Below, one piece after another: positions 10,795-45,766 of a DNA stretch of 64,000 nt (position 1 is the first letter of the stretch; the number at the start of each line of letters is the position of its first letter). The DNA lies in the IMG/VR virus record IMGVR_UViG_3300005527_000042, positions 62,001-126,000 of that record; one strand, written 5' to 3'. The notes beneath the pieces were generated by a model. It was given only the letters and a program-made list of their open reading frames with translations. It made no database searches and was not told where the DNA came from. The stretch is from a virus. The position numbers were made by a program, and so were the translations under genes.

Positions 10795-10822
10795 ACCCTG
10801 ACGGGATGTTCAAAAATTTTAA

Positions 10823-14385: not shown

Positions 14386-14395
14386 TTATTATTAA

Positions 14396-14403
14396 TATTT
14401 ATA
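14396..14403 (+). promoter_or_regulatory. TATTTATA element, candidate late promoter
   Basis: TATTTATA ends 4 nt before the ATG at 14408, fitting the recurrent upstream element of structural and late-type genes in this window. Confidence 0.35.
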
Positions 14404-14407
14404 TCAT

Positions 14408-15155: not shown

Positions 15156-15164
15156 TTTATTTGA

Positions 15165-15626: not shown

Positions 15627-15670
15627 TTTTTTTTACATATTTTTACCCATGAACCACAAACCGAACATTC

Positions 15671-26533: not shown

Positions 26534-26827
26534 ATGGCGAATGAATTACTTCTATTTACACTTGAGGGTTGTGGAGGTTGTAAAAGATTAAAAGAGAGAC
26601 TCCAAAAAGAATCATTACCTTACCGAGAAGTTGAAGTTGGTAAGAATAAAGAGATTTGGAATAAAGTAATTGAACAAACGGGTAATGAATATTTACCCGC
26701 CTTTTACATTAAAAAAGACGACACTGGTAAAGGACCCTTTTTTTGTCCCGAAAAAGATTTTAATGGGGACGACGAGGCGTTAGCAATTATATTAAAATAC
26801 ATTGAAAAAAAAGAAGGGGGTCAATAA
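26534..26827 (+). CDS. Glutaredoxin-like protein
   Basis: This 97-residue thioredoxin-fold protein has CGGC at Cys13-Cys16 after a short strand, and a cis-Pro at YLPAFYI. Glutaredoxins typically have CPYC; the CGGC variant also fits small thioredoxin-like proteins. Together with the adjacent thioredoxin it forms a dithiol reductant pair. The last codons overlap a bidirectional terminator. Confidence 0.75.
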   Translation: MANELLLFTLEGCGGCKRLKERLQKESLPYREVEVGKNKEIWNKVIEQTGNEYLPAFYIKKDDTGKGPFFCPEKDFNGDDEALAIILKYIEKKEGGQ

Positions 26828-26836: not shown

Positions 26837-27898
26837 TTATTTAACTAAACTATTAATCCATTTATAGGTTTTTTCCATTCCATAGAACAGAGGTTCACTA
26901 ACAACCCAACCTATTTTTTCGTGGTATAATTTATTGTCTGAATTTCTTCCCCTCACACCAACAGGACATTTATATCCATACTTCTGTTTAAATTCTTCCC
27001 CACCAATATTTCTGATATAAATTTCTTTACCTGAAATATCTATAGCCATTTGAGCCAAATCATTAATTGTTACTTTCTCTTCAGAACCAATGTTTACAGG
27101 ACCCAAAAAAGAGTCTTGTCTCATTAGTCTTAAAACCGCTTCAACACATTCATCCACATATAAGAATGAACGAGTCTGTTGACCATCACCCCAAACTTCA
27201 ATTTCTCCACCGTCTAACATTTCGGCAACTTTTCTACACATAGCTGCTGGTGCTTTTTCTTTACCACCTTTCCACGTACCATATGGACCAAATATGTTAT
27301 GAAATCTAGCAATTCGAACATCCAAACCGTGATTTCTGTGAAAAGCCAAGTACAACCTTTCCGAAAAAAGTTTTTCCCAACCATATTCTGAATCAGGATT
27401 CGCGGGATATGCTGATGATTCTTCACAATTTGGGTTGTTAGGGTCTAATTGATTGTGTTCAGGATACATACATGCCGATGATGAATAAAAAATCTTCTTA
27501 ACTTTTGTCTTCACTGATTCATTTACAACATTTAAATTTATCATTGCAGAATTGTGCATAACATTCGCGTCATTTTCACCAGTGAAGATGTAACCAGCAC
27601 CACCCATATCGGCAGCTAATTGATAAACCTCATCAAATGGGACCTCAGTTGAATATGGTTGTTTGTAATAATTAAACGGTAATATCGTACCATTTAATTC
27701 TTCTAATCTCATTACTGATGATACGTTTTTTGGGTCCGTAAGGTCATATATTAAGAATTCGTCACAAAAGTCTTTCTCATCAAAATATTCGTGTCTTTTT
27801 ATATCAACTACTCTTACGTAGTTTCCTTCATTTTTTAATCTTTTTGCTAGGTGACCACCAATAAATCCGCCACCACCCAATACTAATACTCGTTTCAT
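26837..27898 (-). CDS. GDP-mannose 3,5-epimerase-like SDR enzyme
   Basis: This 353-residue SDR protein has the N-terminal GGGGFIGGHLAKRL nucleotide-binding loop and the catalytic Tyr-Lys pair in YGWEK. Several stretches read almost like plant GDP-mannose 3,5-epimerase: LAADMGGAGYIF, ACMYPE, RFHNIFGPYGTWKGG, EKAPAAMCRK, WGDGQQTRSFLYVDE and VRGRNSDN. That enzyme makes GDP-L-galactose (and L-gulose) from GDP-mannose. It is the last gene of the minus-strand cluster and overlaps the upstream methyltransferase by 4 nt. A related epimerase specificity cannot be excluded. Confidence 0.8.
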   Translation of the reverse strand: MKRVLVLGGGGFIGGHLAKRLKNEGNYVRVVDIKRHEYFDEKDFCDEFLIYDLTDPKNVSSVMRLEELNGTILPFNYYKQPYSTEVPFDEVYQLAADMGGAGYIFTGENDANVMHNSAMINLNVVNESVKTKVKKIFYSSSACMYPEHNQLDPNNPNCEESSAYPANPDSEYGWEKLFSERLYLAFHRNHGLDVRIARFHNIFGPYGTWKGGKEKAPAAMCRKVAEMLDGGEIEVWGDGQQTRSFLYVDECVEAVLRLMRQDSFLGPVNIGSEEKVTINDLAQMAIDISGKEIYIRNIGGEEFKQKYGYKCPVGVRGRNSDNKLYHEKIGWVVSEPLFYGMEKTYKWINSLVK

Positions 27899-28512
27899 TT
27901 TATTTTTTTAAAAAATCCCTCACCAAAATTATTACCCCACCAAAATTGTTCAACACAGGTAAACCCATGATGTGTCATCCAATTGTTTATTTCATCAAAG
28001 TGTGGACAACCTTTATATAATTCGGCTCTGTTTATTTCTACAATAACGTAGTCAATGTTGATTAATGTATTCACGGAACCTTTGAGAACCTCTAATTCAA
28101 AACCTTGAACATCGATATTCATCATGTTGTATTTTGAAAAATCGTAATTTAAATCATCCAATCTATCCATTTCAACTTCTTCTACAGAATCAAAAACGAT
28201 ATGAGGAAATTGAACAGAATGTAATTTCGGTTCTAATATTGAGGATGACATACCTTTATTAAAGGATTCTACAAACATAGAAACTTTTCTCTTTTCATTA
28301 CCTAACGCCAGTTTAACTAAAATTGCGTCATCATCTATTTTTTCTTTTAAGGTCTCAAAATTAGACGATAGAGGTTCAAAGTATATTCTGTTTGAAATAC
28401 CCAATTCCTTATAAACTTCATCTTCTTGACCAAAATGTGCACCAACGTGAATCACACCATGGATATTAACATTATGATTAATCATAAATGTCTTTAGCTC
28501 TATATTATTCAT
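27895..28512 (-). CDS. FkbM-family methyltransferase
   Basis: This 205-residue SAM methyltransferase has HVGAHFGQE (motif I), IYFEPLSSNF (acidic loop), VKLALGNE and MNIDVQGFELEVLKGS, the FkbM hallmark. Such enzymes O-methylate sugars or other small molecules. It lies in the glycan cluster with 4-nt overlaps on both sides, suggesting methylation of a sugar in the phage-directed glycan. Confidence 0.85.
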   Translation of the reverse strand: MNNIELKTFMINHNVNIHGVIHVGAHFGQEDEVYKELGISNRIYFEPLSSNFETLKEKIDDDAILVKLALGNEKRKVSMFVESFNKGMSSSILEPKLHSVQFPHIVFDSVEEVEMDRLDDLNYDFSKYNMMNIDVQGFELEVLKGSVNTLINIDYVIVEINRAELYKGCPHFDEINNWMTHHGFTCVEQFWWGNNFGEGFFKKIK

Positions 28513-29276
28513 TCTCTATCCTCTTTATATTTGTCTTTATTATACAATAAATCCCTGTGTTTTTCAAGTATTTTTGCTGCGTTTACGTAAACTAAATTAT
28601 TATGTAATGATTGATTTTTTTGTCTAGTGGTCCCCCATCCAGGTTCGGAAATATAATCTATCGTATATAAACCTGACACTTTTCCGAGTTCTTTGAATGC
28701 TCTCATGGACATATCCATATCATCATAATTTTGGGGTGAAAAATATTCGTCTAAAAAATTTAATTTGACCACGTCATTATAGTTGTACATTAGTGGACCT
28801 CTGTTACCATATTCTCTAGCATAAAAAATATCTCTTGATGAGTTATCTTTATGTGCAATATCGATGTAATTTATTTGTTTTGTTTGTTCATTATAGATGT
28901 TATTGTGAGCAACAAAAGATGTTACAGCGAACACATCACTATATTTTATGAACGGTTCCAACATCCTCTTATCAAAATCTTTTTCTGTGACAACCATATC
29001 ATCTTGGATTAAGACCACATAATCATTTATAACAGACTTTAGACCAATATTATTTGCTTTGGTTTCAAAAACATTGTCGGCATACAGGTAATCAATTTTT
29101 TTATTACTAACTCTCTTTAAATTGTCACGAACAATACCTTCACTATTATCTGTACAACCATCAAAAACTATTACAATCTGGTCATTCAGTTCTGATAAAT
29201 TATTTACCAAGTTACTCACCACTTGGTTCATTAAGAATTCCTTGTTGTGAATTGTCAATACTACTGATGTTTTCAT
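28509..29276 (-). CDS. GT2-family glycosyltransferase
   Basis: This 255-residue GT-A enzyme has the N-terminal SVVLTIHNKEFLMNQ strand-loop, IVFDGCTDNSE nucleotide-binding segment and VLIQDDMV (DxD-type). The C-terminal region has NYDDMDMSMRAFKELGK. The ATG at 29276 overlaps the upstream stop (ATGA), so a longer reading upstream is rejected. It transfers an activated sugar; donor and acceptor are unknown. Confidence 0.8.
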   Translation of the reverse strand: MKTSVVLTIHNKEFLMNQVVSNLVNNLSELNDQIVIVFDGCTDNSEGIVRDNLKRVSNKKIDYLYADNVFETKANNIGLKSVINDYVVLIQDDMVVTEKDFDKRMLEPFIKYSDVFAVTSFVAHNNIYNEQTKQINYIDIAHKDNSSRDIFYAREYGNRGPLMYNYNDVVKLNFLDEYFSPQNYDDMDMSMRAFKELGKVSGLYTIDYISEPGWGTTRQKNQSLHNNLVYVNAAKILEKHRDLLYNKDKYKEDRE

Positions 29277-30034
29277 TTTAAAAGATATTTTGATAATTCT
29301 ATACAATCACCTTTTCTATCAAACAGGTGGTCAACATAATTATACGTTTCAATCACGTTATAATTTTCTTTGTGAAAAATCCAATTATTTGCCGTTTGCT
29401 CACAACAATGATAAATCTTCGAGTCTGTATCAGTCACATCTGAAATGTCTACCGATATCATATCTTCCATAATTTTTTTTGCTTGGTGAATATTGTAATC
29501 CGCGGGCAACCCAAAAATACCTAAATTATAAATTTTAAAATCTAAATCATTTGTAACCTGTTTACATATTTTTATTTCACCCCATCTCGGGTCACCATTC
29601 CTAACGATTCTTTCATACTTCCAAACCATAATAGAATTATCATCAATTTGTGGTAATTCCGAATGAAAAAATAAATCATTATCGATTTTTACAGTGTACT
29701 CAGTTTCTGATTTTGCATAATTAATAAAATCATTTAAAACTGTAAAACTATAATTAAGACTTTCATTGTATTTGGTAAGTTGTTCCGTGTAATCAATATA
29801 AATAATTCTGTCTTGGTCAATGTTATACTTGTTCATTTTTTCTTTCATACCCTCAACATCATCAGTATAAAGATGTAAAATACTTTTTCTATTCTTATCA
29901 ATAAATGAAGCATAAGATGCTGATGAATAATCAGATATAAACTCTTTATTTTTGTAGACATCAAACGCCCATTTCCGACCGATTTGGGACATTTTATTTA
30001 AGTCATAATTATAATTTAATGCAATAAATTTCAT
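29273..30034 (-). CDS. Likely glycosyltransferase of unassigned family
   Basis: A 253-residue protein with an alternating alpha/beta N-terminus and a KIDNDLFF segment resembling a metal-binding DxD in GT-A enzymes. It is embedded in the glycan operon with 4-nt overlaps. Sequence evidence for the family is weak; the call rests mainly on context. Confidence 0.45.
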   Translation of the reverse strand: MKFIALNYNYDLNKMSQIGRKWAFDVYKNKEFISDYSSASYASFIDKNRKSILHLYTDDVEGMKEKMNKYNIDQDRIIYIDYTEQLTKYNESLNYSFTVLNDFINYAKSETEYTVKIDNDLFFHSELPQIDDNSIMVWKYERIVRNGDPRWGEIKICKQVTNDLDFKIYNLGIFGLPADYNIHQAKKIMEDMISVDISDVTDTDSKIYHCCEQTANNWIFHKENYNVIETYNYVDHLFDRKGDCIELSKYLLK

Positions 30035-30705
30035 GGTATATATACGTTGTATTTTATTCTATAATCGAGACAATAATCAAATTTTAAATTATGTTTCACA
30101 ACCAAGTTAGTTAATATACTTTGGTCATTTCTATGGAATTGCCAATTTGGAAAATTCTCACCAATTTGATTTGGTTCATTGTCAACTATCTGTTTAATAC
30201 TACAATACTTAAAATAATCGTGAACAAATTCCATCATTTGTTTGGTTTTTTTAATGATGATAAATCCTGCTTCCATCTGTGGTGTTTCATGAAACTTTTC
30301 TTCATCACAATCCATCAAGATAAAACAGTCTCTTTTTGTACATATTTTTTGAGGCCAACGATTTCCATTCCAATTTGTAAAATAATAATCATTATCTTTC
30401 AAATAATTTGCAATCGTATTATAATCAACATCAACTAAATCACCGGCATCGGTATAAATTAATGCATCCCCATCTTCTAATTCATTCAAAATATCTAAAA
30501 TAATTTTTGGTTTCCACAACCAAAATCCATCACCCGTTTCACAATCTAATATTTCTTTATGGTTTTCATAAAAAATACCTTTCTTAACATCTTCAGATTT
30601 AAATCCTCGGATATCATTGAAACCACGTGAATTATAATATCCGATTAATTTTTGAACGGTGTTACTAAATTTATTGTTGGTGTAAAAAGATAGAACAATT
30701 TTCAT
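30031..30705 (-). CDS. Putative polysaccharide glycosyltransferase
   Basis: This 224-residue protein has the segments GFWLWKPKIILDILN and LIYTDAGD, typical of a group of capsule-type glycosyltransferases where TDAG supplies the metal-binding acid. The C-terminal half has FHRNDQSILTNLV, another mark of that group. It overlaps the downstream gene by 4 nt. Donor and acceptor unknown. Confidence 0.65.
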   Translation of the reverse strand: MKIVLSFYTNNKFSNTVQKLIGYYNSRGFNDIRGFKSEDVKKGIFYENHKEILDCETGDGFWLWKPKIILDILNELEDGDALIYTDAGDLVDVDYNTIANYLKDNDYYFTNWNGNRWPQKICTKRDCFILMDCDEEKFHETPQMEAGFIIIKKTKQMMEFVHDYFKYCSIKQIVDNEPNQIGENFPNWQFHRNDQSILTNLVVKHNLKFDYCLDYRIKYNVYIP

Positions 30706-30707
30706 TA

Positions 30708-31409
30708 TTAATGTATCCCCCGAACATTTACGTTTATTTCATATTCATTTATTAATGGAGAGAGTTCATTAGGGTATTCAGATAAATTCCATTTACCTCT
30801 AACTAAAGCCGTTGCTATATATGGATAAACAGAACTATCAAAATGATTCAACCCCCTTTTGTTTTCACCATCGTAATGATATAAACCTTTGATGTTGTTT
30901 TCTATCATAAAATTTCTATATGTTTCATTCTCTAACCACATATTATTTTTGGTACCTTTCATGATTTTAATGTAATCATCTTTTTTCCAAATAGTTGGTT
31001 GCATAGAAAATATATCTTTATTGTCGGATTCTATTTCATATAAGGTCTCATAAATTTTTTTATCTTTAACAGACCCCGATTTTAACAATCTAATGAACGA
31101 ATATTCTTGGTTATCATGTAAAAAATCGAGGTAATTAAAAATTTTATCATGACTGACATTGTTATAAAGAATAAAGTCTTCTTGTAAGTATATAAAATAG
31201 TCATATGGTATTGAAGATAAACACTTTAACCATGATTCATAATAAGGTTCTTGATTTTCATATAAAAAACAAATTTGCTCGGGTATCATTACATCTGTAA
31301 TAAAATACATCGGTAAGTTTGTGTACTTTTTTTGTTCTAACAAGAACATATCCAAAATATCTGAACATTTTGAATTTGTATAAGTAACGTAACAAATTTT
31401 ATTATCCAT
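30708..31409 (-). CDS. Putative glycosyltransferase
   Basis: This 233-residue protein shows an N-terminal CYVTYTNSKCSDIL strand-loop and a central YFIYLQEDFILYN segment (acidic pair in the usual catalytic place). The later TALVRGKWNLSEYP segment suits acceptor binding. It resembles capsule-cluster transferases of poorly defined family. It overlaps the upstream methyltransferase gene by 8 nt. Confidence 0.55.
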   Translation of the reverse strand: MDNKICYVTYTNSKCSDILDMFLLEQKKYTNLPMYFITDVMIPEQICFLYENQEPYYESWLKCLSSIPYDYFIYLQEDFILYNNVSHDKIFNYLDFLHDNQEYSFIRLLKSGSVKDKKIYETLYEIESDNKDIFSMQPTIWKKDDYIKIMKGTKNNMWLENETYRNFMIENNIKGLYHYDGENKRGLNHFDSSVYPYIATALVRGKWNLSEYPNELSPLINEYEINVNVRGIH

Positions 31410-32136
31410 AAGGTGTTAAATTTTTGTTGATATAAACCACATCCATTTCTGTGTTTGAAGATTCTGGCGACTCGTCTATTGGTATAAACCTATTTAGTTT
31501 TTCATCTAGTTCAGATTTACTTGTAGAACCACGATATAATTCCTGTAACCCTACTTCGGTGGTTATTATTTTTACATCATTTAAATATTCTTTTAGAGAG
31601 TCTAATACGATATTTTCTGCACCTTGAACATCCATCCAAATCAAATCAACACTTTTAATATCATTTTCTTTTAACCAATCACTAAGAACAATACAGTCAA
31701 CCTCAGTTTCCTTTTGGGCCCACTGAGATGAACGCCAGTGGTTTGTTGTCTGTAATAAAGAACTGGCACCCACATTTCCATTATAAACTTCGTAAAATTT
31801 AGTTTTACCGTTGTAATTGTTTATTGCGTATTGGTAAACTTTTATGTTATTAATTTTCTCAACGTTCTTAACTGTAAATTCGTAGTTTTCTTTTACTGGT
31901 TCAAACGCATATATTTTAGCATGTGGAAACCATCTATTTAACTCTAAACTTTGGCAACCATCTCTTGACCCAATATCTAATATTGTGTTGACATCATTAA
32001 AGTCAATTTTATCTTTTATAACATTAATCATTTTTGTTGTCCATAATGGACATCTACCATTCAAATCGGTAAAGGCACCCCTATTTAATTCATCTTGAGT
32101 AAATGCGTCGTCAATAAATTTTGAATTATCTATCAT
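31402..32136 (-). CDS. FkbM-family methyltransferase (second copy)
   Basis: This 244-residue methyltransferase has ILDIGSRDGCQS (SAM motif I), IYAFEPVKENYEF, KVYQYAINN and the FkbM segment LIWMDVQGAENIVLDSL. It differs enough from the protein at 27895-28512 to suggest a distinct substrate rather than a recent duplicate. It probably methylates a sugar residue or lipid-linked intermediate in the same pathway. Confidence 0.85.
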   Translation of the reverse strand: MIDNSKFIDDAFTQDELNRGAFTDLNGRCPLWTTKMINVIKDKIDFNDVNTILDIGSRDGCQSLELNRWFPHAKIYAFEPVKENYEFTVKNVEKINNIKVYQYAINNYNGKTKFYEVYNGNVGASSLLQTTNHWRSSQWAQKETEVDCIVLSDWLKENDIKSVDLIWMDVQGAENIVLDSLKEYLNDVKIITTEVGLQELYRGSTSKSELDEKLNRFIPIDESPESSNTEMDVVYINKNLTPYG

Positions 32137-32147
32137 TTTTATAATTT

Positions 32148-32738
32148 TTAAATCACCACCATACTATAACATGGTGCGTCTTTATATGTGGACAAATTAA
32201 TATTTCGTTTTAACCAAAAAATTTCATTATCATTACTTAATTCGCCACCCATAAAGTTTATATTTTTATAGTTAAGTGATATTATATTTTCCGTGATTAT
32301 TTTTTCCGAATACTCATCGTGTATGGTAGATACATTCCAAATATCAAACACCGTATCTATTTCACCCTCCACAAAATAATCAACAAAATATTTTCCTTCA
32401 TTATGCCAAGTCAAAAAATTTACACACTCTTTTTTAAATGTGGAAACTAATCTATTTGCATTAGATGGTAGTAAATCACTTCTCCATTTAAGGACTCTGT
32501 TGTAACCTATTTCTTTGGCTTTCATTATTCCATTCAAAGTTGATATTTTTTGTAGTGCTATATTTTGTACACCCCTATCGTGTGGAATACTGTTGAATAA
32601 GACAACATCATTAGTATCGTATTTTGATTCTTCACCTTGCCATGTTGACCAAATCAAATCATAACCAGTCCAAGCGTTTTTTAATTCTTTAACGTAGTCT
32701 GAAGGTCCTTGTACTATGACACAAAAATCATTATTCAT
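32148..32738 (-). CDS. WavE-like polysaccharide synthesis protein
   Basis: This 196-residue protein has the pattern of WavE-type LPS core synthesis proteins: CVIVQGPSDYVKEL at the start, LIWSTWQGEE, then RVLKWRSDLLPSN and FWLKRNINLS. These are presumed glycosyltransferases. It is shorter than typical family members, so it may be a minimal form. It sits between an FkbM methyltransferase and a GT-D-type gene. Confidence 0.6.
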   Translation of the reverse strand: MNNDFCVIVQGPSDYVKELKNAWTGYDLIWSTWQGEESKYDTNDVVLFNSIPHDRGVQNIALQKISTLNGIMKAKEIGYNRVLKWRSDLLPSNANRLVSTFKKECVNFLTWHNEGKYFVDYFVEGEIDTVFDIWNVSTIHDEYSEKIITENIISLNYKNINFMGGELSNDNEIFWLKRNINLSTYKDAPCYSMVVI

Positions 32739-32744
32739 ACTGAA

Positions 32745-33464
32745 TTAAAATTTTGATATGTGATTATGATATTGTGACCCTTCATACATGTATGGTCTAG
32801 TTATTTTATTATGTATGAATACATCTAATGCGGAACCAAAATCAATATAAGTGTTATTACTATTATTTGTAAACATATGTTTTATGATAACAGCAGATGT
32901 TGGTCCACAACATACGATAAATAAAGTATCTTTATATTTTGAAGAAACATTGTATATTTTTTCTAAAAACGAATCTCTATGTTCTTCCCAATAGTTTACA
33001 CAATCATTAGGGAACGGTACAAATTCTGATACACTAAATGGTATGTTTTTTAAATCACAATTTTCATTACAAATTAAAACAACATCTCGATTTATATTTC
33101 TTATTCTTGATATATTTTCTTTGTAATTTGCGTTAATCCATAGGTTAGCAAATGTAATGTTTGATTTATTTTGTATTCTATCATATAAAAAATTATAGTC
33201 TCTAATACTATCAGTTTTGGAGGATATTGCAAAATAAAAATTTGGGTCGTTCAACCCTATACATTCATTTAAATCCACACCTAATTTGGTTTGTCCCCCA
33301 CTCGAAAACCATTTATCGTTTTGATACGCTTGTGTATTCTTTTCTATCGGTGAATTATTCATTAACATCACTTCACCATCGGCATATCTAACAAAAGAAA
33401 AGTTAGTTCGACTATCTATCTTTTCCCAAAACGAATTAAAATCTTCAATATACTTTTCAATCAT
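32745..33464 (-). CDS. GT-D-type glycosyltransferase
   Basis: This 239-residue protein has the motif FSFVRYADGEVMLM, corresponding to the RxGDGE-type motif of GT-D-fold transferases such as those in bacterial glycoprotein clusters. The C-terminal half has FIVCCGPTSAVIIKHM, a Rossmann-like nucleotide-binding element, and IDFGSALDVF. GT-D enzymes are known for adding sugars to glycoproteins, which is notable beside Thr-rich virion proteins. It overlaps the downstream-numbered GT2 gene by 8 nt. Confidence 0.7.
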   Translation of the reverse strand: MIEKYIEDFNSFWEKIDSRTNFSFVRYADGEVMLMNNSPIEKNTQAYQNDKWFSSGGQTKLGVDLNECIGLNDPNFYFAISSKTDSIRDYNFLYDRIQNKSNITFANLWINANYKENISRIRNINRDVVLICNENCDLKNIPFSVSEFVPFPNDCVNYWEEHRDSFLEKIYNVSSKYKDTLFIVCCGPTSAVIIKHMFTNNSNNTYIDFGSALDVFIHNKITRPYMYEGSQYHNHISKF

Positions 33465-34185
33465 TTAATATTGTCTTAAATCCTTTATTTACATACCCAC
33501 GGTAAACTTCACCCATTAAATTCATATTTGAATGATTTACGGAAATTGCGTTGGAATCAGTTCCATGTTCCCATGCATATTCTGGTATACTACCCCACAT
33601 TTCTCTATTTTCTTTAGGATGGGGAGGAACGTAAGTTCCGATATTTGCGTATTTCTGTAATGTATATGAAAAGTGCATATCCTCACCAACTAATTTACTC
33701 TGATTGATTTCAGGTAATTCTCTCCAAAATATCGATAACCATTCTCTTTTAAAGAACCACGAGTGACCAACAATGTCGACCTTTTCAATTTCTTCGTTAG
33801 GTTGGTCCCAACCGACTCTTGTTGCTGGCCAATAAGAGTTTTTTGTGTGAAATTTTACACCGATAGTTCCTAATAAACCTTCTTGAATTTTCATGGTGTT
33901 TAGACAGTTTTCTAACCATAGTTTACCCGGTATTGTGTCATCATCAAAAACACAAATATATTCTGTGTTGGCATTTAAAGCAAATGCAAATCTTGCCCAC
34001 ACACCTAAATTACTATTACAAGATGCGTGAATTAAATCTTTGGTTAGTCCCTCATCAAATTGAGAACCAGAATTTTGCCAAAATAAAATTGATTCGGGTT
34101 GGACACTTTGATTTCTAATTGATTCCAATTGTTTTTGGAGAACATGTGGTCTTTTATACCCATTTAATATTACCGTTATACTCAT
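33457..34185 (-). CDS. GT2-family glycosyltransferase
   Basis: This 242-residue GT-A enzyme has VILNGYKRPHVLQKQLESIRNQ at the N-terminus (GT2 hallmark), the metal site VFDDDT and a C-terminal KLVGEDMHFSYTLQKY region (ED catalytic base position). It overlaps the epimerase gene upstream by 4 nt. Specific sugar unknown. Confidence 0.85.
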   Translation of the reverse strand: MSITVILNGYKRPHVLQKQLESIRNQSVQPESILFWQNSGSQFDEGLTKDLIHASCNSNLGVWARFAFALNANTEYICVFDDDTIPGKLWLENCLNTMKIQEGLLGTIGVKFHTKNSYWPATRVGWDQPNEEIEKVDIVGHSWFFKREWLSIFWRELPEINQSKLVGEDMHFSYTLQKYANIGTYVPPHPKENREMWGSIPEYAWEHGTDSNAISVNHSNMNLMGEVYRGYVNKGFKTILND

Positions 34186-35174
34186 ACAATTTTTCTAAAT
34201 ATTTCAATGATTCTTTCACAAGAATTACCATCACCAAAAGGACAATCATATTCTGTTTGGAAATCGTTAATAATATCGTAAAAAATACCTTCTAAGTCAA
34301 TGGGTTTTTTACATATAAAAGACGTTTTACCCAAGGACTCAGGTCTCTCAGTTTTTTCTCTACATACAATAACTTTCTTATTTAGGAACGACGCCTCTTC
34401 TTGAACACCCCCACTATCTGAAATTAGTAATTTACAGGATTTGAATTCCTCAATAAATTTATCATGGGTTAATGGTTCAATAACATCAACATGTGTCAAT
34501 ATATGTTTGTGTTTTATGACGTTTGGGTTTGGGTGTATTGGAAGAATGAATTTTAATTCAGGATTATTCTTTGCTAATCGATTGATAACATCAAACCACT
34601 CCGACATCATCTCATGATTCTCTCTTCTATGTAAAGTGATTAAGACTTTATTTTCGTATGTAATATTTTCTTTATTAAGATTATCTAATACGGTATTGCC
34701 AACTACAAAATTTTTACCCTGAACTTTTTCATTTTCTAAGTTCATCTTGTTACTTTCTGTTGGGCAAAGATTATAGTTTGAAATTCTACTAATTAACTGC
34801 CGATACATTTCTTCGGGGTAAGGGTGATTGTAGTCATATGTCCGTAATCCCGCTTCTAAATGAATCACTTCTTTTTTATGGTGTAATCCTATTAGGGATA
34901 ATGAAAGAGCGGTTGCGGTGTCCCCTTGGATAAGTATATGTGTAACCCCTTCCAAAAATTCTTTTTTAAAATTTAAAAATACGGATGACATAATACTATC
35001 CAATCTATTTTCACACGTATCATCAATGGATAATTTATAATCAAAATCACCCAATACAATATCTTTGTGTTGGGTAACATATAAAATTTTATGGGGAATA
35101 CTTTCCCCACACATTTCTATTAATTTTTTTATTTTAATATACTCAGGTCTTGTGCCGTAACAAAATAATATCAT
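34182..35174 (-). CDS. wecB: UDP-GlcNAc 2-epimerase (WecB/NeuC type)
   Basis: This 330-residue enzyme has GTRPEYIKIKKLI at the start, the LIQGDT segment, HLEAGLRT, PEEMYRQLIS, ITLHRRENH, ILPIHPNPNV and ISDSGGVQEEA, all hallmarks of the non-hydrolysing UDP-GlcNAc 2-epimerase. It makes UDP-ManNAc from UDP-GlcNAc. Length is slightly below bacterial WecB (about 375). No UDP-ManNAc dehydrogenase is visible, so ManNAc itself, or a host enzyme, would be used next. Confidence 0.9.
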   Translation of the reverse strand: MILFCYGTRPEYIKIKKLIEMCGESIPHKILYVTQHKDIVLGDFDYKLSIDDTCENRLDSIMSSVFLNFKKEFLEGVTHILIQGDTATALSLSLIGLHHKKEVIHLEAGLRTYDYNHPYPEEMYRQLISRISNYNLCPTESNKMNLENEKVQGKNFVVGNTVLDNLNKENITYENKVLITLHRRENHEMMSEWFDVINRLAKNNPELKFILPIHPNPNVIKHKHILTHVDVIEPLTHDKFIEEFKSCKLLISDSGGVQEEASFLNKKVIVCREKTERPESLGKTSFICKKPIDLEGIFYDIINDFQTEYDCPFGDGNSCERIIEIFRKIV

Positions 35175-35992
35175 ATATAAGTTGAAATGATTTCTAAATT
35201 TTTTAAAGTGTTAGTTTCTAAGAAATCAATTAATTCATCACCTGATAACCTATTAAACCATTCTTCTAAACTTGCACCATAATTTTGTGTCGTTATTACT
35301 TCCAAACCTAAACATTTTGCCTCAACAACCAGTCTACAAAAAGTTTCTCTTGCTATCGGGAAAAACACAATACCTTTACATTTGGCCATATTACTTAAAA
35401 ATTCAACTCTGTCTTTAGATTCTTTAAGAATATGGACCGGTAATTTATTTTCAGAACAATACTTCAGACTACCTTGGGTGTTCTTTATCCAATTATTTGT
35501 ATAGTAAACAGAATATTTGTCGTTTTTAACATTGTTGGATTTATTTAAATTCCTCAATAATTCTAAGTCCTCATTTGACCATATCGAACTATTCAGATTT
35601 ATAAAATTAGCAACAACATCGTTTTTAAGATAAACGTTCATGTGGTCGGTTGTTTGAACAAATACCGCTTTTGCATTCCGGTAAAGAGAATAGTTGGTTC
35701 TTTCCTCAATCGGAATTATGTTGTCGGTATATCTCCATGGGTGTCTACTTGCACATATTTTATAATCGTTTTCAATAATGACGTAGTTCAAATTTTGTAT
35801 TTGATTAACCAAGTTTGGGTTCATCAAAGAAATATTTGATATAATATACAGGGCGTTGTAATCAAATGACTTGACTTGGTTTGAATATTCAAACTCAAGA
35901 TTAAATCTATCAATTAAAACTTGATTCACCCATTCAGAACCACCGTGAGGTACTTCTTTAATGGTAAAATCCGATATAAGTATTTTCCTCAT
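35171..35992 (-). CDS. GT4-like glycosyltransferase (GT-B fold)
   Basis: This 273-residue protein starts with ISDFTIKEVPHGGSEWVNQ, the Gly-rich acceptor-side loop of GT-B transferases, and has IVFFPIARETFCRLVVEAKCLGLEVI near residues 210-235, equivalent to the E-x7-E donor motif. It is shorter than typical GT4 enzymes (about 350-400), so it may be a reduced form. The frame is intact. Confidence 0.7.
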   Translation of the reverse strand: MRKILISDFTIKEVPHGGSEWVNQVLIDRFNLEFEYSNQVKSFDYNALYIISNISLMNPNLVNQIQNLNYVIIENDYKICASRHPWRYTDNIIPIEERTNYSLYRNAKAVFVQTTDHMNVYLKNDVVANFINLNSSIWSNEDLELLRNLNKSNNVKNDKYSVYYTNNWIKNTQGSLKYCSENKLPVHILKESKDRVEFLSNMAKCKGIVFFPIARETFCRLVVEAKCLGLEVITTQNYGASLEEWFNRLSGDELIDFLETNTLKNLEIISTYI

Positions 35993-36711
35993 ATAACTTG
36001 ATAATTTTCTTTTAACATGCTGTCCATGTAATTGAATGGTAAATTAAAATAATGTTCACCGAATTTATGTTGTTTATTGAACGATGACAATCTCTTTGCT
36101 CTTGAAATGTAAATGTTCTTCACGTAGTCTTTACCCAAGAATTTATAGTGAAGAAGTTTTATTTCCCGCTCATCCGAAAATTTACCATCAACAGAATTAA
36201 AACTGTGACCACCAATGCCGTATTTTATATCTAAATCAGGATGAAAAATTATATTTTTACACATTGGTTCATACGTTTGTGAACCTGTTTTAATTTTTGT
36301 TGTAATGAATTCACCGTCGTATATTGGAAATTCAGTACTAACCATGTCGTGACCGTCTATTCTTGGGACGGTTATACCCATTTCTTTGTACTCTTGAAGT
36401 TTATCCATAAGATTTTCATGGTATATAAACTCATCACAGTCACAAACTATAACCCAATCAACACCCTGACCTCTACTTCTTTTTTTATACTCTTCGGATT
36501 TAATGTTTACGTAATTAATTTCATTTATTTCATTACCACTATCCCATTTAATAACCTCAACTTTTGGGTACCTCTTATAAATCTCATCAGAGGAGTCCGT
36601 TGACATATTATCGTATATGAATATTTTTTCACAGATTGTACTATAGTAATCCAATGTGAATGGTAATATTTTTTCTTCATTCCATGACAGTATATGTGCG
36701 TGTATCTTCAT
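35989..36711 (-). CDS. GT2-like glycosyltransferase (Glyco_tranf_2_4 type)
   Basis: This 240-residue protein has HILSWNEEKILPFTLDYY at the N-terminus, IFIYDNMSTDSSDEI and WVIVCDCDEFIY (the DxD), followed by HSFNSVDGKFSD and a Lys-rich helix. These are marks of the glycan transferase group with an SxNE start. It is in the middle of the minus-strand chain with 4-nt overlaps. Substrate unknown. Confidence 0.8.
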   Translation of the reverse strand: MKIHAHILSWNEEKILPFTLDYYSTICEKIFIYDNMSTDSSDEIYKRYPKVEVIKWDSGNEINEINYVNIKSEEYKKRSRGQGVDWVIVCDCDEFIYHENLMDKLQEYKEMGITVPRIDGHDMVSTEFPIYDGEFITTKIKTGSQTYEPMCKNIIFHPDLDIKYGIGGHSFNSVDGKFSDEREIKLLHYKFLGKDYVKNIYISRAKRLSSFNKQHKFGEHYFNLPFNYMDSMLKENYQVI

Positions 36712-36712
36712 T

Positions 36713-37492
36713 TTAAAATATGTTTTTCCAAAGTGTTAATATCTCTTCGTTACTTAATTTAGAAACTTCATTCATAGTCTCTTCATTACCATAAAACTCT
36801 GTACCGGTTAAATAACATTCATCTTTAACCAAACAAGCAACCTCACCCTTTGATGAGTGATATACCTTACCAATCATATCGTACATTTCTTGTTTATTGG
36901 TGGTGTGACCGTAATGAATTACTCTTGGATTCATTAAAGGTTTTACCAATTTGTCAAAATAGTTTTGGTCACCGATGTGACCGAACAAATAGATTTTTTC
37001 ACACCTGTCTTTTAATGCTCTTTGTATTGACACATGGGTCTGTTTTCTGTCTTCAATTGTACCAATAATTCCTGCAATATTTCTTACCAGCTCTTTATTT
37101 GAAATAATTAAATTTTCTTTGATGTTTGGTATTATTACATAATCACCCCTGTAATCCGAGTGATATTTTCGATGCTCTTCATGTAAAAACACGCACAGGT
37201 CCCAATACTGTTTAATTTTACCAACAGGGAACCACCATTTTTCATGACAAGACAAAATAACTTTTTTAACAGGTGGTCTTTCCTGTAGTTGTAAAAAATG
37301 GGTAATTACAATATCATCAGATTCATACTTTAAATCTTTTTCAATGTTCCCTGATTTACATTTGTCTAAATGGTAATTCTGATTACCGTAAAATGTGCAA
37401 TCAATACCATTTTCATTTAAGAAATTTGTTAAGTTTATAAAAAAAGTGGTAGAACCACCTTTTTCTGTAAATCCCGATACAATTTTTATCAT
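36713..37492 (-). CDS. GT4-like glycosyltransferase (GT-B fold)
   Basis: This 259-residue protein starts with IVSGFTEKGGSTTFFINLTNFL (Gly-rich loop) and has AGIIGTIEDRKQTHVSI and IYLFGHIGDQNYF, typical nucleotide-sugar-site segments of GT-B enzymes, then VYHSSKGEVACLVKDECYLTGTEFYG. It lacks the full C-terminal lobe, like its neighbour at 35171. Function otherwise unknown. Confidence 0.65.
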   Translation of the reverse strand: MIKIVSGFTEKGGSTTFFINLTNFLNENGIDCTFYGNQNYHLDKCKSGNIEKDLKYESDDIVITHFLQLQERPPVKKVILSCHEKWWFPVGKIKQYWDLCVFLHEEHRKYHSDYRGDYVIIPNIKENLIISNKELVRNIAGIIGTIEDRKQTHVSIQRALKDRCEKIYLFGHIGDQNYFDKLVKPLMNPRVIHYGHTTNKQEMYDMIGKVYHSSKGEVACLVKDECYLTGTEFYGNEETMNEVSKLSNEEILTLWKNIF

Positions 37493-38946
37493 CTTAATTG
37501 TTTGATATTTTTTCTAATTTCAGGTGAGTTTATGTACTGACCTAAGACTTGTTTTAATTCAACATCAACCTTTTCAAATTTTGATGCCATATCAATCATT
37601 ACCACACTGTTTGTGTCAATGAATGTTTTACGTTTTTTAAGTAAAGTTTTCAACGCAAAATCTAAGTTATAAATTGATGTTTCTAAATTAATATCAAACC
37701 AATCAATCATTTTTAAATTTGTAGATGTAGTGGCAAAAAAGTCACTAATACTACCAAAATTGTTTGGAAAGTGTCCGTGTAAAATATTGAAAAAAGATGA
37801 TTTGTTTTTAAAAATTAAATTGAACTGTTCGTTGTTTTGAACTATATCCAATCCATTTGAAAAAATTGTTCGGTCGTTTTCTAATACTGTAGGAAAGACG
37901 CACCCAAAAGTATTTTTTTCACTCTTAAATATTGAATACATACTTGAGAAAACGTCGTTCAATACGGTAACAGTATCATTACTGAAAAATAACAAATCTG
38001 TTTTTGATTCCATAAACGATTCATCCCATTTCAGTACTGATAAGTTTTTATTTAATGTATCAAAAAAACCCTCGTAAATTTTAATATTTTCAGATTCAAA
38101 TTCTCTAATATTGTCTATATTGGTATCCGTCGAGATGAGTGAAATCTGTAAACTATCAAACACTGGTAATTTTTTTATGTTTTCAAAAAACTGAATTAAA
38201 TTTTCATTATCGTTTGATGTTTGAACTATTAAATTAAATTTATCTTTAAACTGTTTTGGTTTGGTTATGTCATAATCAATTTTTGGTGTTATATTAATTG
38301 GTAGGTTCTCTTTAAATTTTTCAATGTAAAATTCCCTATTCTTTTCCCAAGAATCATTGGTCATTCCGATTGATTTGTGAGTGATTCTTATGTTGTATAT
38401 AACACCGATGTTTACCTCACTTAAGTGATTGCTAGTACAGAATACCATATCATAAAAATGAAAACCCGGTACTGACTCATCAAAAGTGTGTTTTATTCTG
38501 TTTTTGTGGATTCCAATGAATAAACCATCCACTAAACAAACTTCGTGAATTGAATTTGGGATTCCATTTGCATATCTCGATTCCCATTTTTTACCCTCAT
38601 TTTCATGATTAACAATACCAACCATTTTGGTATTATCTGTCCACCACCTACCACTCTCATGAATATTGGTTGTACCGGCAACACCGAGAATCCCGTAGTC
38701 AGATTCTTCAAAATGTTTGACTAATTTTCTACCCCACGAAGTCGTATTAAAGTAAATGTCATCATGACAAAGTACGACAATATCATGAATCGACTCTTGA
38801 ATAATTTCATTGTAAGTTTGTGAAAGACTTTTTTCACCATTGTTTACTTTTTCAATAACTTGAACTTTGGGGTGTCCACAAGTTTTTTTTAAATATTCTT
38901 GAAATTTTGGGTTGGACTCTCTTGTACTGTAACCTATTGTAATCAT
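37489..38946 (-). CDS. Two-domain glycosyltransferase, first gene of the glycan operon
   Basis: This 485-residue protein begins with a GT-A domain containing QTYNEIIQES, IVVLCHDDIYF (DD metal motif), ILGVAGTTNIHESGRWW, LVDGLFIGIHKNR, GFHFYDMVFC and THKSIGMTNDSW. These match a glycosyltransferase group common in Bacteroidetes surface-glycan loci. The C-terminal half (residues about 240-485) looks like a second, divergent GT-A domain (LLFFSNDTVTVL). It leads the cluster; a TATATTAT box lies 25-35 nt upstream on the minus strand. Confidence 0.8.
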   Translation of the reverse strand: MITIGYSTRESNPKFQEYLKKTCGHPKVQVIEKVNNGEKSLSQTYNEIIQESIHDIVVLCHDDIYFNTTSWGRKLVKHFEESDYGILGVAGTTNIHESGRWWTDNTKMVGIVNHENEGKKWESRYANGIPNSIHEVCLVDGLFIGIHKNRIKHTFDESVPGFHFYDMVFCTSNHLSEVNIGVIYNIRITHKSIGMTNDSWEKNREFYIEKFKENLPINITPKIDYDITKPKQFKDKFNLIVQTSNDNENLIQFFENIKKLPVFDSLQISLISTDTNIDNIREFESENIKIYEGFFDTLNKNLSVLKWDESFMESKTDLLFFSNDTVTVLNDVFSSMYSIFKSEKNTFGCVFPTVLENDRTIFSNGLDIVQNNEQFNLIFKNKSSFFNILHGHFPNNFGSISDFFATTSTNLKMIDWFDINLETSIYNLDFALKTLLKKRKTFIDTNSVVMIDMASKFEKVDVELKQVLGQYINSPEIRKNIKQLR

Positions 38947-38995: not shown

Positions 38996-39196
38996 TTAAA
39001 ATTTGGAACCGTTTGGTGCAAGACCGTTGTGATTATCAATTTGTTTTCTAAAATCTTCTCTAGTGTTATATAGGTCAAGAGCTCGGTTTACTAATTTTTG
39101 TAGATTGATTGAACCATCTACACTTTTTATCTTAAATCTTTTATAAACATCATCTATGATGTTAACGCTGGTTAGTTTTGTTTGTTGTTTAGGCAT
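38996..39196 (-). CDS. Ribbon-helix-helix-type DNA-binding protein candidate
   Basis: This 66-residue protein starts MPKQQTKLTSVNIIDDVYKRF, followed by LVNRALDLY, similar to the beta strand plus two helices of RHH repressors. The start at 39196 is preferred over a longer frame because the extra N-terminus is hydrophobic and unrelated. It lies directly upstream of the glycan operon, so it could regulate that operon. Confidence 0.55.
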   Translation of the reverse strand: MPKQQTKLTSVNIIDDVYKRFKIKSVDGSINLQKLVNRALDLYNTREDFRKQIDNHNGLAPNGSKF

Positions 39197-40396: not shown

Positions 40397-40765
40397 TTAA
40401 CGGACAGGATTCATAGGTGTTCCCAAATACATATTAACTCGGTCACCTTCTTTAAATTTATCAGTAACACCGGCGGGAAACTCAATAACATGGTCACCTA
40501 TGCCGGTGTATCTTTTTGGGTTCAATTCATTTTGACCAGCGGGTTCACAATTTCTATGTATTTTACTGATTCTATTTTTCAATACAAAAACAATATCCAA
40601 AGGTATTAAACAGTTTTTCATCCAAAAAGAATGGTGACCAACACCACCCATATTAAAAACCATACAACCATTTAAATTATCTCTACCCATCATACCTTGA
40701 CTAATTTCTTCAGGTTCGGATAGGTATTCCGCAGGGAACTTTGTATTATTAATAATCACTGACAT
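40397..40765 (-). CDS. DUF192-family protein
   Basis: This 122-residue protein matches DUF192: QGMMGRDNLNGCMVFNM, SFWMKNCLIPLDIVFV and the C-terminal VIEFPAGVTDKF segment. The family is widespread in bacteria and phages and of unknown function. The start at 40765 is preferred because a TATTTATA element lies directly upstream on the minus strand. It converges on the methyltransferase gene with 2 nt between stops. Confidence 0.75.
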   Translation of the reverse strand: MSVIINNTKFPAEYLSEPEEISQGMMGRDNLNGCMVFNMGGVGHHSFWMKNCLIPLDIVFVLKNRISKIHRNCEPAGQNELNPKRYTGIGDHVIEFPAGVTDKFKEGDRVNMYLGTPMNPVR

Positions 40766-40778
40766 ATTTTTATAAATA

Positions 40779-40810
40779 TTTGACTTTATCATATTTGTTT
40801 ACTATATTTT
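40779..40810 (+). promoter_or_regulatory. Bacteroidetes-type promoter for the metabolic operon
   Basis: TTTG (40779-40782), 20 nt, TATATTTT (40803-40810), then the ATG at 40817. It is one of five perfect matches to the pattern and heads the run of genes including glutamine synthetase. Confidence 0.65.
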
Positions 40811-43837: not shown

Positions 43838-44441
43838 ATTAATATATCAAAAAAAATCTGACGAACTTATTAACAGTGTCGAAGGATGGTTTATTGTTTC
43901 TGAAGATTCATCAAAGAATTTTGAAGCATCAAAAGAAACTTTAGAAAAAATAAAAAGCGGAAAATATGATGTAAAAGACGGTGATGAAGTCGAGTATGTT
44001 TTAAAAACAAATTGTCAAGTAATGTACGATGATATTTTTCATAGTACAATTGCTGACATCATAATAACGCAAAAAATGGTTAGTCGGGTTTTTCTGATTG
44101 ATATTGATGGGACAATTTGTGACGACATTAAAAATGAAGATTCACATCTTTATCCGACAGCTAACCATTACCCAAACGCGTTGGGTATCATCAACAAATG
44201 GTACGATGAGGGAAATGTAATTACATTTTTTACCGCTCGTGAAAGTAAAGACCGTGAAGTAACCGAAACATGGTTAAAAGAAAAAGGTTTTAAATATCAC
44301 GGATTGGTTATGGACAAACCAAGAATCAAAGATGACCAAGAATATGTGTGGATTGATAATAGAAAAGTCAGAGCGATTACGTATCTTGGAACGTGGTCTG
44401 AATTAAAAGAAGTAGACGCAAAAATTCAAACATTTGAGTAA
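43827..44441 (+). CDS. HAD-fold phosphatase with N-terminal extension
   Basis: Residues about 1-88 of this 204-residue protein form a separate acidic domain. Residues about 90-200 are a HAD phosphatase: RVFLIDIDGTICDD (catalytic DxD), ITFFTARESKDREVT (second motif), a Lys in VMDKPRIKDDQ and EYVWIDNRK (acidic motif). It may be a nucleotidase or sugar phosphatase. It starts inside the preceding gene and abuts thymidylate synthase by 1 nt, which favours nucleotide metabolism. Confidence 0.7.
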   Translation: MKGKLIYQKKSDELINSVEGWFIVSEDSSKNFEASKETLEKIKSGKYDVKDGDEVEYVLKTNCQVMYDDIFHSTIADIIITQKMVSRVFLIDIDGTICDDIKNEDSHLYPTANHYPNALGIINKWYDEGNVITFFTARESKDREVTETWLKEKGFKYHGLVMDKPRIKDDQEYVWIDNRKVRAITYLGTWSELKEVDAKIQTFE

Positions 44442-45766
44442 TGAACAAATTAGATAAACAATACACAGACTTACTCCAAACTATTATAGATTATGGGGTA
44501 GAAAAGAAAGACCGTACAGGTACAGGAACCAAATCTATTTTTGGTTATACAATCCGTCATAAAATGTCCGATGGGTTTCCATTACTTACAACCAAGAAAA
44601 TGGCGTGGAAGACGATGGTAACCGAATTGTTATGGTTCCTTCGTGGTGATACAAACATCAAGTTCCTTGTTGATAACAATTGTCATATTTGGGATGGTGA
44701 TGCGTATAAGAACTATCTAATTGAAGATGCCAAAATCTTACCTAATATGTCAAAAGAAAAAATGTTAGAGTTAGGATTTCGATTAACAAAAGAAGAATTC
44801 ATCAACAAAATAAAAACCGATGATGAGTTTGCTAAGAAGTGGGGTGACCTCGGACCTGTGTATGGTAAGCAATGGAGAAGATGGGGTAGAAAGAATGTGA
44901 CTAATTACGACTTAAAGGATGTAAAAGGTTCTGACCAACACAGAGTACTAAAAGCAATTGAAATCGGTGAAGATGTTACCAAGTATGGTGTCAAAATAGA
45001 ATACCAAAACAATTCAATAGACCAAATCACAAACCTAATCAACGACCTTAAAACAAATCCAGACTCAAGACGATTAATGGTCAATGCTTGGAATGTTGGA
45101 GAGCTGGACCAAATGGTTCTTCCACCTTGTCATTATGGATTTCAAGTTTATACGAGAGAGTTGAGTTTAGATGAAAGGATTAATTATTATAACTCAACAA
45201 AAGACCCTTTAAATCAAAGTAGTGATTATCACGATGTTCACATGGATAGTTTAAGAGTTCCTAAACGAGCAATCTCTTTAATGTGGAATCAACGCTCAGT
45301 AGACACATTCTTAGGTCTACCATTCAATATTGCTTCTTACGGTTTGTTACTTGAGATTATTGCTAAAGAAGTAAATATGGTACCTGATGAGTTGATTGGT
45401 AATTTAGGTGATACTCATTTGTATAGTAACCATGTTGAACAAGCAAGAGAACAAATCGGTAGAAAGTATACACATGAAGAGAGAGAAGGTATGTTAAAAG
45501 AGGCGATGGGTCCTAATGGTTATAAAAGTGCGTTGAAAGACTTAGCACCATTTGGTGGAGGTATGTCTGAATATTATGAGATATATAAAATACCACGATA
45601 CACAAGAGAACCTTATAAATTACCCAAACTAAAACATATGAAGACCGATGAATTTTATAAATCATTATCTGAAGACTCATCTTTAATAACTCATTTGGAA
45701 AATAAGGATTTTCAAATCGAAAATTATCAATCACACCCATCGATTAAAGCACCCTTAAGTAATTAA
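44441..45766 (+). CDS. thyA: Thymidylate synthase (ThyA)
   Basis: This 441-residue enzyme has the folate-type motifs RTGTGTKSIFGY, FPLLTTKKMAW, LGPVYGKQWRRWG, the active-site VLPPCHYGFQVY with the nucleophile Cys, RSVDTFLGLPFNIASY and GDTHLYSNH, and the standard end IENYQSHPSIKAP. It converts dUMP to dTMP with methylene-tetrahydrofolate. Length exceeds bacterial ThyA (about 264), with inserts after the DNNCHIWDGDAY region and near residues 330-400, which look phage-specific. Confidence 0.9.
   Translation: MNKLDKQYTDLLQTIIDYGVEKKDRTGTGTKSIFGYTIRHKMSDGFPLLTTKKMAWKTMVTELLWFLRGDTNIKFLVDNNCHIWDGDAYKNYLIEDAKILPNMSKEKMLELGFRLTKEEFINKIKTDDEFAKKWGDLGPVYGKQWRRWGRKNVTNYDLKDVKGSDQHRVLKAIEIGEDVTKYGVKIEYQNNSIDQITNLINDLKTNPDSRRLMVNAWNVGELDQMVLPPCHYGFQVYTRELSLDERINYYNSTKDPLNQSSDYHDVHMDSLRVPKRAISLMWNQRSVDTFLGLPFNIASYGLLLEIIAKEVNMVPDELIGNLGDTHLYSNHVEQAREQIGRKYTHEEREGMLKEAMGPNGYKSALKDLAPFGGGMSEYYEIYKIPRYTREPYKLPKLKHMKTDEFYKSLSEDSSLITHLENKDFQIENYQSHPSIKAPLSN

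Follow-up and report, generated by a model that had tools for sequence, protein, structure and literature searches.

What does a bacterial virus do with fifteen consecutive genes for glycan biosynthesis? The question is raised by a gene cluster at positions 26837-38946, minus strand, of a 64,000-nucleotide stretch of viral DNA (the window), which comprises bases 62001-126000 of the 155.7-kb IMG/VR virus record IMGVR_UViG_3300005527_000042. This island of glycan genes, which belongs to a jumbo T4-like phage, is clade-specific and exchangeable, and it occupies a slot that elsewhere mostly holds long fibre-like genes. Its most likely role, which we propose with moderate confidence, is to build and vary the outer part of the O-linked glycans carried by mucin-like proteins that the phage itself encodes in its tail region and that are rich in Thr and Pro.

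An exchangeable glycan island

The same virus was found in 12 further IMG/VR contigs. The longest (G001, 288 kb), with 349 called proteins, was the basis for the membrane scan and the profile searches. Matches to tail sheath, baseplate wedge, portal, major head protein, and terminase characterize the virus as a jumbo T4-like myovirus. The T4-like virion genes in the 288-kb copy confirm an earlier annotation of the window (the original prediction), which had placed the cluster in a phage genome. In all 12 contigs (L003-L014), 20,990 bases around the cluster were identical to the base; either the virus is very clonal, or the assemblies come from linked samples.

Seventy related loci, none of them a copy of this virus, were recruited via the AAA gene at 25147 (the second list comprised the best 80 of 212). 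Some are near-copies of each other, and the eight cluster loci were labelled by hand. In the slot that follows the glutaredoxin gene, 59 loci carry plus-strand genes (including L037, counted here though non-syntenic), eight carry a minus-strand sugar-gene cluster, and three are too short. Most of the plus-strand genes are long, and two N-termini (MAQII and MALQ) recur among their products. Among nine of their proteins that were scanned, two contained a LamG lectin-like domain and seven gave no Pfam match above the cut-off; we read the plus-strand slot proteins as tail fibres. Profiles of the MAQII and MALQ N-termini matched none of the 349 proteins of G001, and tblastn with 204 downstream plus-strand proteins of relatives detected no fibre-like homolog in that record. 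The slot is bordered by two genes:

26534-26827, plus strand: glutaredoxin, left border, adjoining the slot in most relatives (PF00462, 35.0 bits; cut-off 22.9)
40397-40792, minus strand: DUF192 gene (PF02643, 66.3 bits), right border in L071, L079, and L105

In a tree of the AAA protein (59 distinct rows), the window and seven cluster-bearing loci formed one clade, sister to three plus-strand loci. The cluster of L079 lies apart from this clade, and two changes are required. Within the clade, the island varies strongly in content. Genes neighbouring the cluster in L028 are 70-97% identical to those of the window; nine of its 12 cluster open reading frames (ORFs) match the window cluster and three do not. 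An absence from related phages, which the original prediction had named as evidence against it, was thus not observed: nine of the 15 genes have counterparts with 42-89% identity in L028, at the same place. All five ORFs of L027 that precede its contig end are common to the window cluster. The other clusters have fewer genes in common with it (blastp, E 1e-4): one of eight in L029, one of six in L030, none of 15 in L031, four of 11 in L051, and one of 11 in L052.

The unlike clusters are nevertheless sugar-gene clusters, as revealed by Pfam scans of 20 of their proteins. Matches among the ten from L031 included GT11, a galactosyltransferase, a sugar nucleotidyltransferase, a PfkB kinase, a HAD phosphatase, and a transketolase-type domain. 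Among the seven from L029 were GT2, an O-methyltransferase, a hexapeptide transferase, WbqC, and a DegT aminotransferase, and among the three from L030 a UDP-glucose/GDP-mannose dehydrogenase and a methyltransferase. The L031 cluster (7788-16471), without any gene common to that of the window, resembles a fuller sugar pathway. The ends are more recurrent. A GDP-mannose 3,5-epimerase (GME) gene lies at the glutaredoxin end in five of the eight clade members (window, L027, L028, L030, and L051), and homologs of the gene at 37489 lie near the opposite end of the cluster in L051 and L052; the one in L029 lies where its contig stops. Such recurrent ends with a variable middle are reminiscent of bacterial surface-polysaccharide loci. 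At the same slot, the distant relative L079 carries a mini-cluster (11676-15020) with the 37489 homolog at the glutaredoxin end. Four of the seven related cluster-bearing contigs (L027, L028, L029, and L030) end inside or no more than ~200 bases past the part of the cluster shown, as if assembly had been broken by local strain variation.

The window cluster consists of 15 consecutive ORFs exactly at 26837-38946, all on the minus strand:

26837-27898: GME-like epimerase, last gene of the chain (297.7 bits to 2c59; Pfam Epimerase, 140 bits)
27895-28512: FkbM-type methyltransferase (PF05050, 61.6 bits; cut-off 22.7)
28509-29276: GT2 glycosyltransferase (PF00535, 47.9 bits; cut-off 23.3), with a 4-nt overlap at the moved start
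29273-30034: putative glycosyltransferase from our reading of the motif KIDNDLFF only (no Pfam, PHROG, or NCBIfam match)
30031-30705: putative glycosyltransferase from our reading of the motif YTDAGD only (no relevant match in the same three collections)
30708-31409: possible glycosyltransferase, weak (TIGR04440, 13.8 bits; cut-off 70)
31402-32136: FkbM-type methyltransferase (PF05050, 71.8 bits)
32148-32738: gene without a family match in the three collections; 59% homolog in L028
32745-33464: GT-D-like, below cut-off (PF22882, 21.9 bits, cut-off 27; NF040628, 21.6 bits, cut-off 75)
33457-34185: GT2 glycosyltransferase (PF00535, 29.2 bits; cut-off 23.3)
34182-35174: UDP-GlcNAc 2-epimerase, WecB-type (PF02350, 204 bits, cut-off 30.6; 6vlb, 152.6 bits)
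35171-35992: possible GT4-type transferase, weak (PF00534 (GT1), 17.8 bits; cut-off 26.4)
35989-36711: GT2-type glycosyltransferase (PF13704, 56.8 bits; cut-off 27.5)
36713-37492: gene without a family match in the three collections; fold with a mean predicted local distance difference test (pLDDT) of 36.6
37489-38946: GT2-type glycosyltransferase with a second part without assignment, first gene of the chain (PF13712, 86.4 bits)

The start of the third gene was moved from TTG at 29306 to ATG at 29276. With this start, eight of the 14 junctions overlap by 4 nt and two by 8 nt, and the other four are gaps of 1-11 nt, so that the description of mostly 4-8-nt overlaps applies to ten of them. The two predicted sugar-nucleotide epimerases were recovered by Pfam and by matches to solved structures. 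For the 26837 product, GME accounts for each of the five top-scoring distinct solved sequences (286-298 bits), followed by a next best of 79.8 bits; the 34182 product scored just under the cut-off of NCBIfam TIGR00236 (209.9 vs 210.15 bits). Both FkbM assignments hold as well. Eleven transferases had been proposed, four of which exceed the curated cut-off (28509, 33457, 35989, and 37489). Two of the other seven fall below it (32745 and 35171), and for five no Pfam match points to a transferase (29273, 30031, 30708, 32148, and 36713). The label "WavE-like" found no support in Pfam, PHROG, or NCBIfam. AlphaFold models of the 36713 product (single sequence) and the 29273 product (three sequences; mean pLDDT 41.2) were too low in confidence for a fold reading. 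Profile-profile comparison among 15 groups of transferases of this phage family yielded no probability above 32%, and solved-structure searches of 32745, 35171, and 37489 returned no convincing or useful relative.

A crude hydropathy scan detected no membrane segment in any of the 15 cluster proteins, in agreement with the predicted lack of a polymerase and a flippase. The same scan found no protein with at least five membrane segments among the 349 of G001. The flippase, polymerase, and many membrane segments of a Wzy-type O-antigen or capsule locus were thus seen neither in the 15 genes nor in the 288-kb record. The reported absence of a dehydrogenase holds for the 15 genes; the relative L030 does have one in its cluster. 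Cluster genes for which relatives exist are under purifying selection, with ratios of nonsynonymous to synonymous substitution (dN/dS) of 0.035-0.081 in nine comparisons over eight genes with L027 or L028, at partly saturated dS values of 0.5-2.6 and with two genes of unknown family included. The value was 0.078 for the 29273 gene (against L027) and 0.081 for the 30031 gene; genes neighbouring the cluster gave 0.017-0.094.

A further gene lies upstream of the chain:

38996-39196, minus strand: 66-aa protein with phmmer homologs upstream of the L079 and L052 clusters (E 6e-23 and 7e-12, respectively)

It is possibly a small regulator, although this is a guess.

A candidate acceptor and a candidate initiating enzyme

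A candidate acceptor is encoded in the tail-gene region. An ORF of 5,472 codons (G001 107949-124367) contains 2,471 Thr (45%) and 1,095 Pro (20%) and ends ~2.5 kb before the window. It directly follows the gene of a 1,414-aa protein, near the baseplate genes. We considered an assembly artefact; three records (G000, G001, and G002) agree on the length of the ORF, within which the longest exact repeat measures 116 nt. The contig of G004 ends inside the ORF, and G003 matches over the part compared (first 3,418 codons). The 1,414-aa protein is present in 24 of the 31 records of a panel of this phage family. The records of L027 and L029, the two clade relatives that hold its gene, encode orthologs of the tract protein of 2,940 aa and 2,737 aa, respectively. 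The stretch from the 1,414-aa protein to a 716-aa protein (window 4351) contained at least 20 Thr-Pro-Thr (TPT) motifs in 19 of 20 further records; in G036 and G009, where no end marker was found, the whole piece was counted. In a ranking of 23 records by TPT, the three of the cluster-bearing clade came first, second, and fifth, which is only suggestive, these three being close kin. Two further Thr/Pro-rich proteins are encoded in the tail-gene region within the window:

164-1012, plus strand: 282-aa protein (Thr 19%, Pro 10%)
1392-4313, plus strand: 973-aa protein (Thr 27%, Pro 13%), proposed acceptor

We infer that the tract proteins are part of the virion.

A candidate for the initiating enzyme is found in a second glycan locus (G001 265375-281748), which opens with two PF11397 "Glycosyltransferase (GlcNAc)" proteins scoring 244.4 and 164.3 bits (cut-off 21), one of them encoded at L114:7375-8631. 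Methyltransferases, a nucleotidyltransferase, and a RuBisCO-like protein are among the products encoded downstream, and L050:6544-7455, in the 288-kb record, is a homolog in this locus of the cluster gene at 30708. The RuBisCO-like large-chain protein (G001 272967-274196, L114:14967-16196) gave 110.7 bits with PF00016. A D-x-H motif (D96, H98) is invariant in 13 phage PF11397 sequences. We take PF11397 to be CAZy family GT60, to which the initiating enzyme of Trypanosoma cruzi presumably also belongs. DxH replaces DxD in GT27 and GT60, and both families are tied to O-glycosylation of polypeptide Ser/Thr (PMC7185993; for this and all later citations, we refer to excerpts of the papers). The T. 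cruzi enzyme transfers alpha-GlcNAc to Thr of mucins, with KPPTTTTTTTTKPP as an acceptor (PMC3769586). By analogy, the phage proteins may be polypeptide GlcNAc-transferases that start O-glycans.

PF11397 was absent from 14 of 14 control bacterial and archaeal genomes, and phmmer found no solved-structure relative of the phage protein. The family occurs in nine of the 31 panel records, including all seven longer than 250 kb, one from this virus and six from its relatives. Searched against 50,697 phage records (E 1e-5), the enzyme matched only XacN1, RAS14, and CM1. At least 587 stretches in viral contigs encode PF11397 relatives, and the enzyme appears to be widespread in uncultured viruses.

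Do the enzyme and the tracts occur together? We counted a DNA pattern for TPTxTPT in whole records; a reversed-pattern control gave 0-2 matches per record. Among named phages, the pattern was present in all three with PF11397 (51, 22, and 22 matches) and in none of 11 without it, P-SSM2 and S-SSM7 among them. The three positive phages had been found by the enzyme and the others picked by hand. A panel of large IMG/VR records comprised 11 of >170 kb chosen via PF11397 and 11 of >180 kb chosen via thymidylate synthase, the latter without copies of this virus; two of these latter 11 turned out to be PF11397-positive. Here, the pattern occurred in 13 of 13 positive records (4-79 matches) and in none of nine negative ones. 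Joined, the two panels showed tracts in 16/16 records with PF11397 vs 0/20 without. After near-copies had been merged by eye, the comparison was 14 vs 16, with a probability of sorting by chance of ~7e-9, a value that makes the association look too strong, since kinship is ignored. In the family panel, all nine PF11397 records contained the pattern.

Proposed pathway and alternative explanations

We propose the following scheme for the enzyme activities, acceptor, glycan structure, and benefit. In the cytosol, PF11397 transferases would attach an initial sugar, by analogy GlcNAc, to the threonines of TPTx. The soluble glycosyltransferases of both loci, among them those of the cluster, whose 15 proteins have no membrane segments, would extend the glycan sugar by sugar, without a lipid carrier, polymerase, or flippase. 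Judged by their families, the two epimerases could supply donors of the GDP-L-galactose and UDP-ManNAc types. The FkbM enzymes, firmly assigned by family, would methylate the chain. Gene exchange within the island, which is seen as variation in content, might alter the glycan as in bacterial O-antigen loci. The likely benefit would be masking of the virion or carbohydrate-mediated attachment.

Several observations weigh against this proposal. Its weakest step is the link from the 15 window genes to the Thr/Pro acceptor: the PF11397 and tract genes are located elsewhere in the genome, apart from the island, and the GME resembles epimerases of cyanophages, including that of S-SSM7, a phage without PF11397 or tracts. 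Seven of the 11 cluster transferases, based on weak matches, motifs, or the judgement behind the original prediction, are unproven. The reading frame of the tract gene is broken in one copy of the virus (G006). G016 has PF11397 but no TPT at the usual tract place; its tract protein sits in the fibre slot instead. Relatedness is uncontrolled in the co-occurrence counts, and PF11397 and the Thr/Pro tracts may simply have been inherited together in one clade. The PF11397-bearing record G014 gave three pattern matches vs one for the reversed control, and 18 of the 22 family-panel records without PF11397 do have tracts. These 22 are all <220 kb and mostly fragments; some of them, for instance G021 (176 kb) and G025 (199 kb), could be genuine exceptions. 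Moreover, the glycoproteins reported for phage XacN1 are not matched to its tract proteins in the excerpts of the report (PMC5852040).

The main rival, which we regard as rather unlikely, is that the cluster alters the lipopolysaccharide (LPS) or capsule of the host and thereby blocks superinfecting phages or grazers, as proposed for P-SSM2. The soluble transferases would then act on lipid-linked precursors of the host and use its flippase and ligase, so that the missing membrane proteins could come from the host. The combination of epimerase, GT2, and FkbM genes resembles cyanophage LPS-type clusters, and the GME is 57-58% identical to its ten best phage matches, mostly from cyanophages and including S-SSM7 (57%). 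P-SSM2 provides a precedent, with 24 LPS genes (PMC2984593) or a 15-gene cluster (PMC7824862); the size of the window cluster, called large for a phage in the original prediction, is thus not unprecedented. However, P-SSM2 and S-SSM7 lack PF11397 and tracts, the 288-kb record encodes no flippase- or polymerase-like protein detectable as at least five membrane segments, and the island occupies the slot used for long fibre-like genes in most relatives. The original prediction had named both virion and host surface as targets. The virion is favoured, indirectly, by the tracts, PF11397, and their co-occurrence, and the host surface stays in contention.

Alternatively, sugars on the virion could serve in attachment to host or mucus glycans or lectins, the island standing in for the fibre-like genes. 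The failure to find fibre-like homologs in G001 with the profiles and tblastn, and the report of XacN1 as a phage without tail fibres (PMC5852040), are consistent with this idea. It is nevertheless improbable: the fibre identity of the slot proteins is our own reading (LamG in two of nine and no Pfam match in seven), and the genome, whose record may be incomplete, could encode further receptor-binding proteins.

A modification of phage DNA bases by the glycans is very improbable. dCMP hydroxymethylases belong to the thymidylate synthase family, of which a member is encoded at 44441. Phage glycosyltransferases are reported to glucosylate phage DNA (PMC12619734). However, the cluster varies in content between close relatives, and a set of 15 genes, among them those of two epimerases, a pair of FkbM enzymes, and no fewer than four transferases, would exceed what base glycosylation is understood to need. 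That the cluster is non-functional cargo filling the head, an idea raised as "stuffer DNA" for cyanophage LPS clusters (PMC3037559), is scarcely credible and already contradicted by the selection signal and the intact reading frames.

Large phage glycan clusters (P-SSM2, S-SSM7) and glycosylated phage virions (Che8, Rita, XacN1) are already known. Our searches of openly accessible literature listed no earlier description of mucin-like or Thr/Pro tract proteins in phages, no use of PF11397 to mark phages, and no account of the slot exchange. If glycosylation of the tract proteins is true, phages would own a mucin-type O-glycosylation system comprising its acceptor, its initiating enzyme, and a set of exchangeable genes for extension; such mucin-like self-coating would be unusual for a bacterial virus. 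PF11397 together with TPTx tracts would be a genomic marker showing where to look. The system would account for the many glycosyltransferases of some jumbo phages, with XacN1 as a cultured test system, and would link a diversifying sugar island to the fibre-like slot and perhaps to host contact. A bolder generalization, which we offer as possible rather than probable, is that many jumbo phages make "phage mucins", giant Thr/Pro-rich virion proteins on which phage-encoded PF11397 enzymes, initiating enzymes of the protist-mucin type, start dense O-glycosylation in the host cytosol, and whose glycans are diversified by serotype-like, strain-variable islands. In the clade of the window, the island would replace the fibre-like genes, with contact or masking by sugars.

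The virus, its host, and known systems

The major capsid protein (MCP) was compared with the 50,697 phage records. The best matches listed were 32-43% identical over 54-70% of the protein; in named phages, they included Flavobacterium phages (41% over 57%), a Microcystis phage, and others. Some signal peptides of this virus end in FSQ, which is typical of Bacteroidota. A Bacteroidota promoter pattern was not enriched in the window (six matches vs 7.2 expected), and the host assignment therefore rests on weak signs. A contig from a Prochlorococcus single cell (L152, QCKH01000009.1) encodes an MCP 60% identical to that of this phage, and two metagenome-assembled genome bins encode MCPs with 62-73% identity. 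L152 may stem from an infected cell or from a virion sorted along with the cell, or it may be contamination; it pulls the host signs away from Bacteroidota. Window 44441-45766 encodes the thymidylate-synthase-family protein (441 aa). Two separate stretches of it match a PHROG model of 335 positions, and the length covered by the match varies from one relative to another, which suggests that the gene carries an insertion.

Which known system does the island resemble most? As in P-SSM2 and S-SSM7, the latter described with large LPS gene clusters (PMC3037559), a T4-like myovirus carries a large cluster of epimerase and several glycosyltransferase genes. The cyanophage clusters lie near hli03 or phoH and tRNAs (PMC3037559), whereas the island lies in a fibre-like slot and no tRNA was found in the 64-kb window. 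Furthermore, this phage has both PF11397 and TPTxTPT, and the two cyanophages have neither. The moraphages, mainly freshwater jumbo phages of up to 307 kb with T4-like virion genes, have four core glycosyltransferase groups and variable "genomic islands", the functions of which were left open by the authors (PMC12619734). Likened by published description only, the family of this phage may be the moraphages; the word "threonine" is absent from the text of that report.

A bacterial counterpart is the glycosylation of Ser-rich repeat adhesins, in which a series of glycosyltransferases acts on a repeat protein, as proposed here. The acceptor residue is Ser, in contrast to the tract protein with its 100 Ser vs 2,471 Thr, and the GT-D (DUF1792) of the adhesin system has its counterpart here in the 32745 product, with a match below the cut-off (21.9 vs 27 bits). 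In mycobacteriophages Che8 and Rita, phage glycosyltransferases and glycans on virion proteins have been reported (as cited in PMC11256854); for our phage, glycosylation is proposed from genes. Mycobacteriophage glycans are located on capsid and tail-tube subunits (PMC12619734), whereas we propose Thr/Pro tracts as the acceptor, and there are two gene loci in our phage. The T. cruzi polypeptide alpha-GlcNAc-transferase (pp-alpha-GlcNAcT) acts on a Thr-rich mucin acceptor, like the one proposed for the phage, but is a Golgi enzyme of a protist (PMC3769586).

The closest cultured relatives with respect to the initiating enzyme are XacN1 (Xanthomonas) and RAS14 and CM1 (Stenotrophomonas). Their PF11397 enzymes are 45-48% identical to ours over 97-98% (47.8% for ORF334 of XacN1), and TPT tracts are present. 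In the stretches read, none of their proteins exceeds ~20% Thr, compared with 45% in the 5,472-aa protein, and XacN1 is described with two glycosyltransferases (PMC5852040) compared with the 15-gene island of this phage. Proteomics of XacN1 revealed "at least two glycoproteins" (PMC5852040), and its tract-bearing ORFs include ORF369, 370, and 372, near the tail sheath gene.

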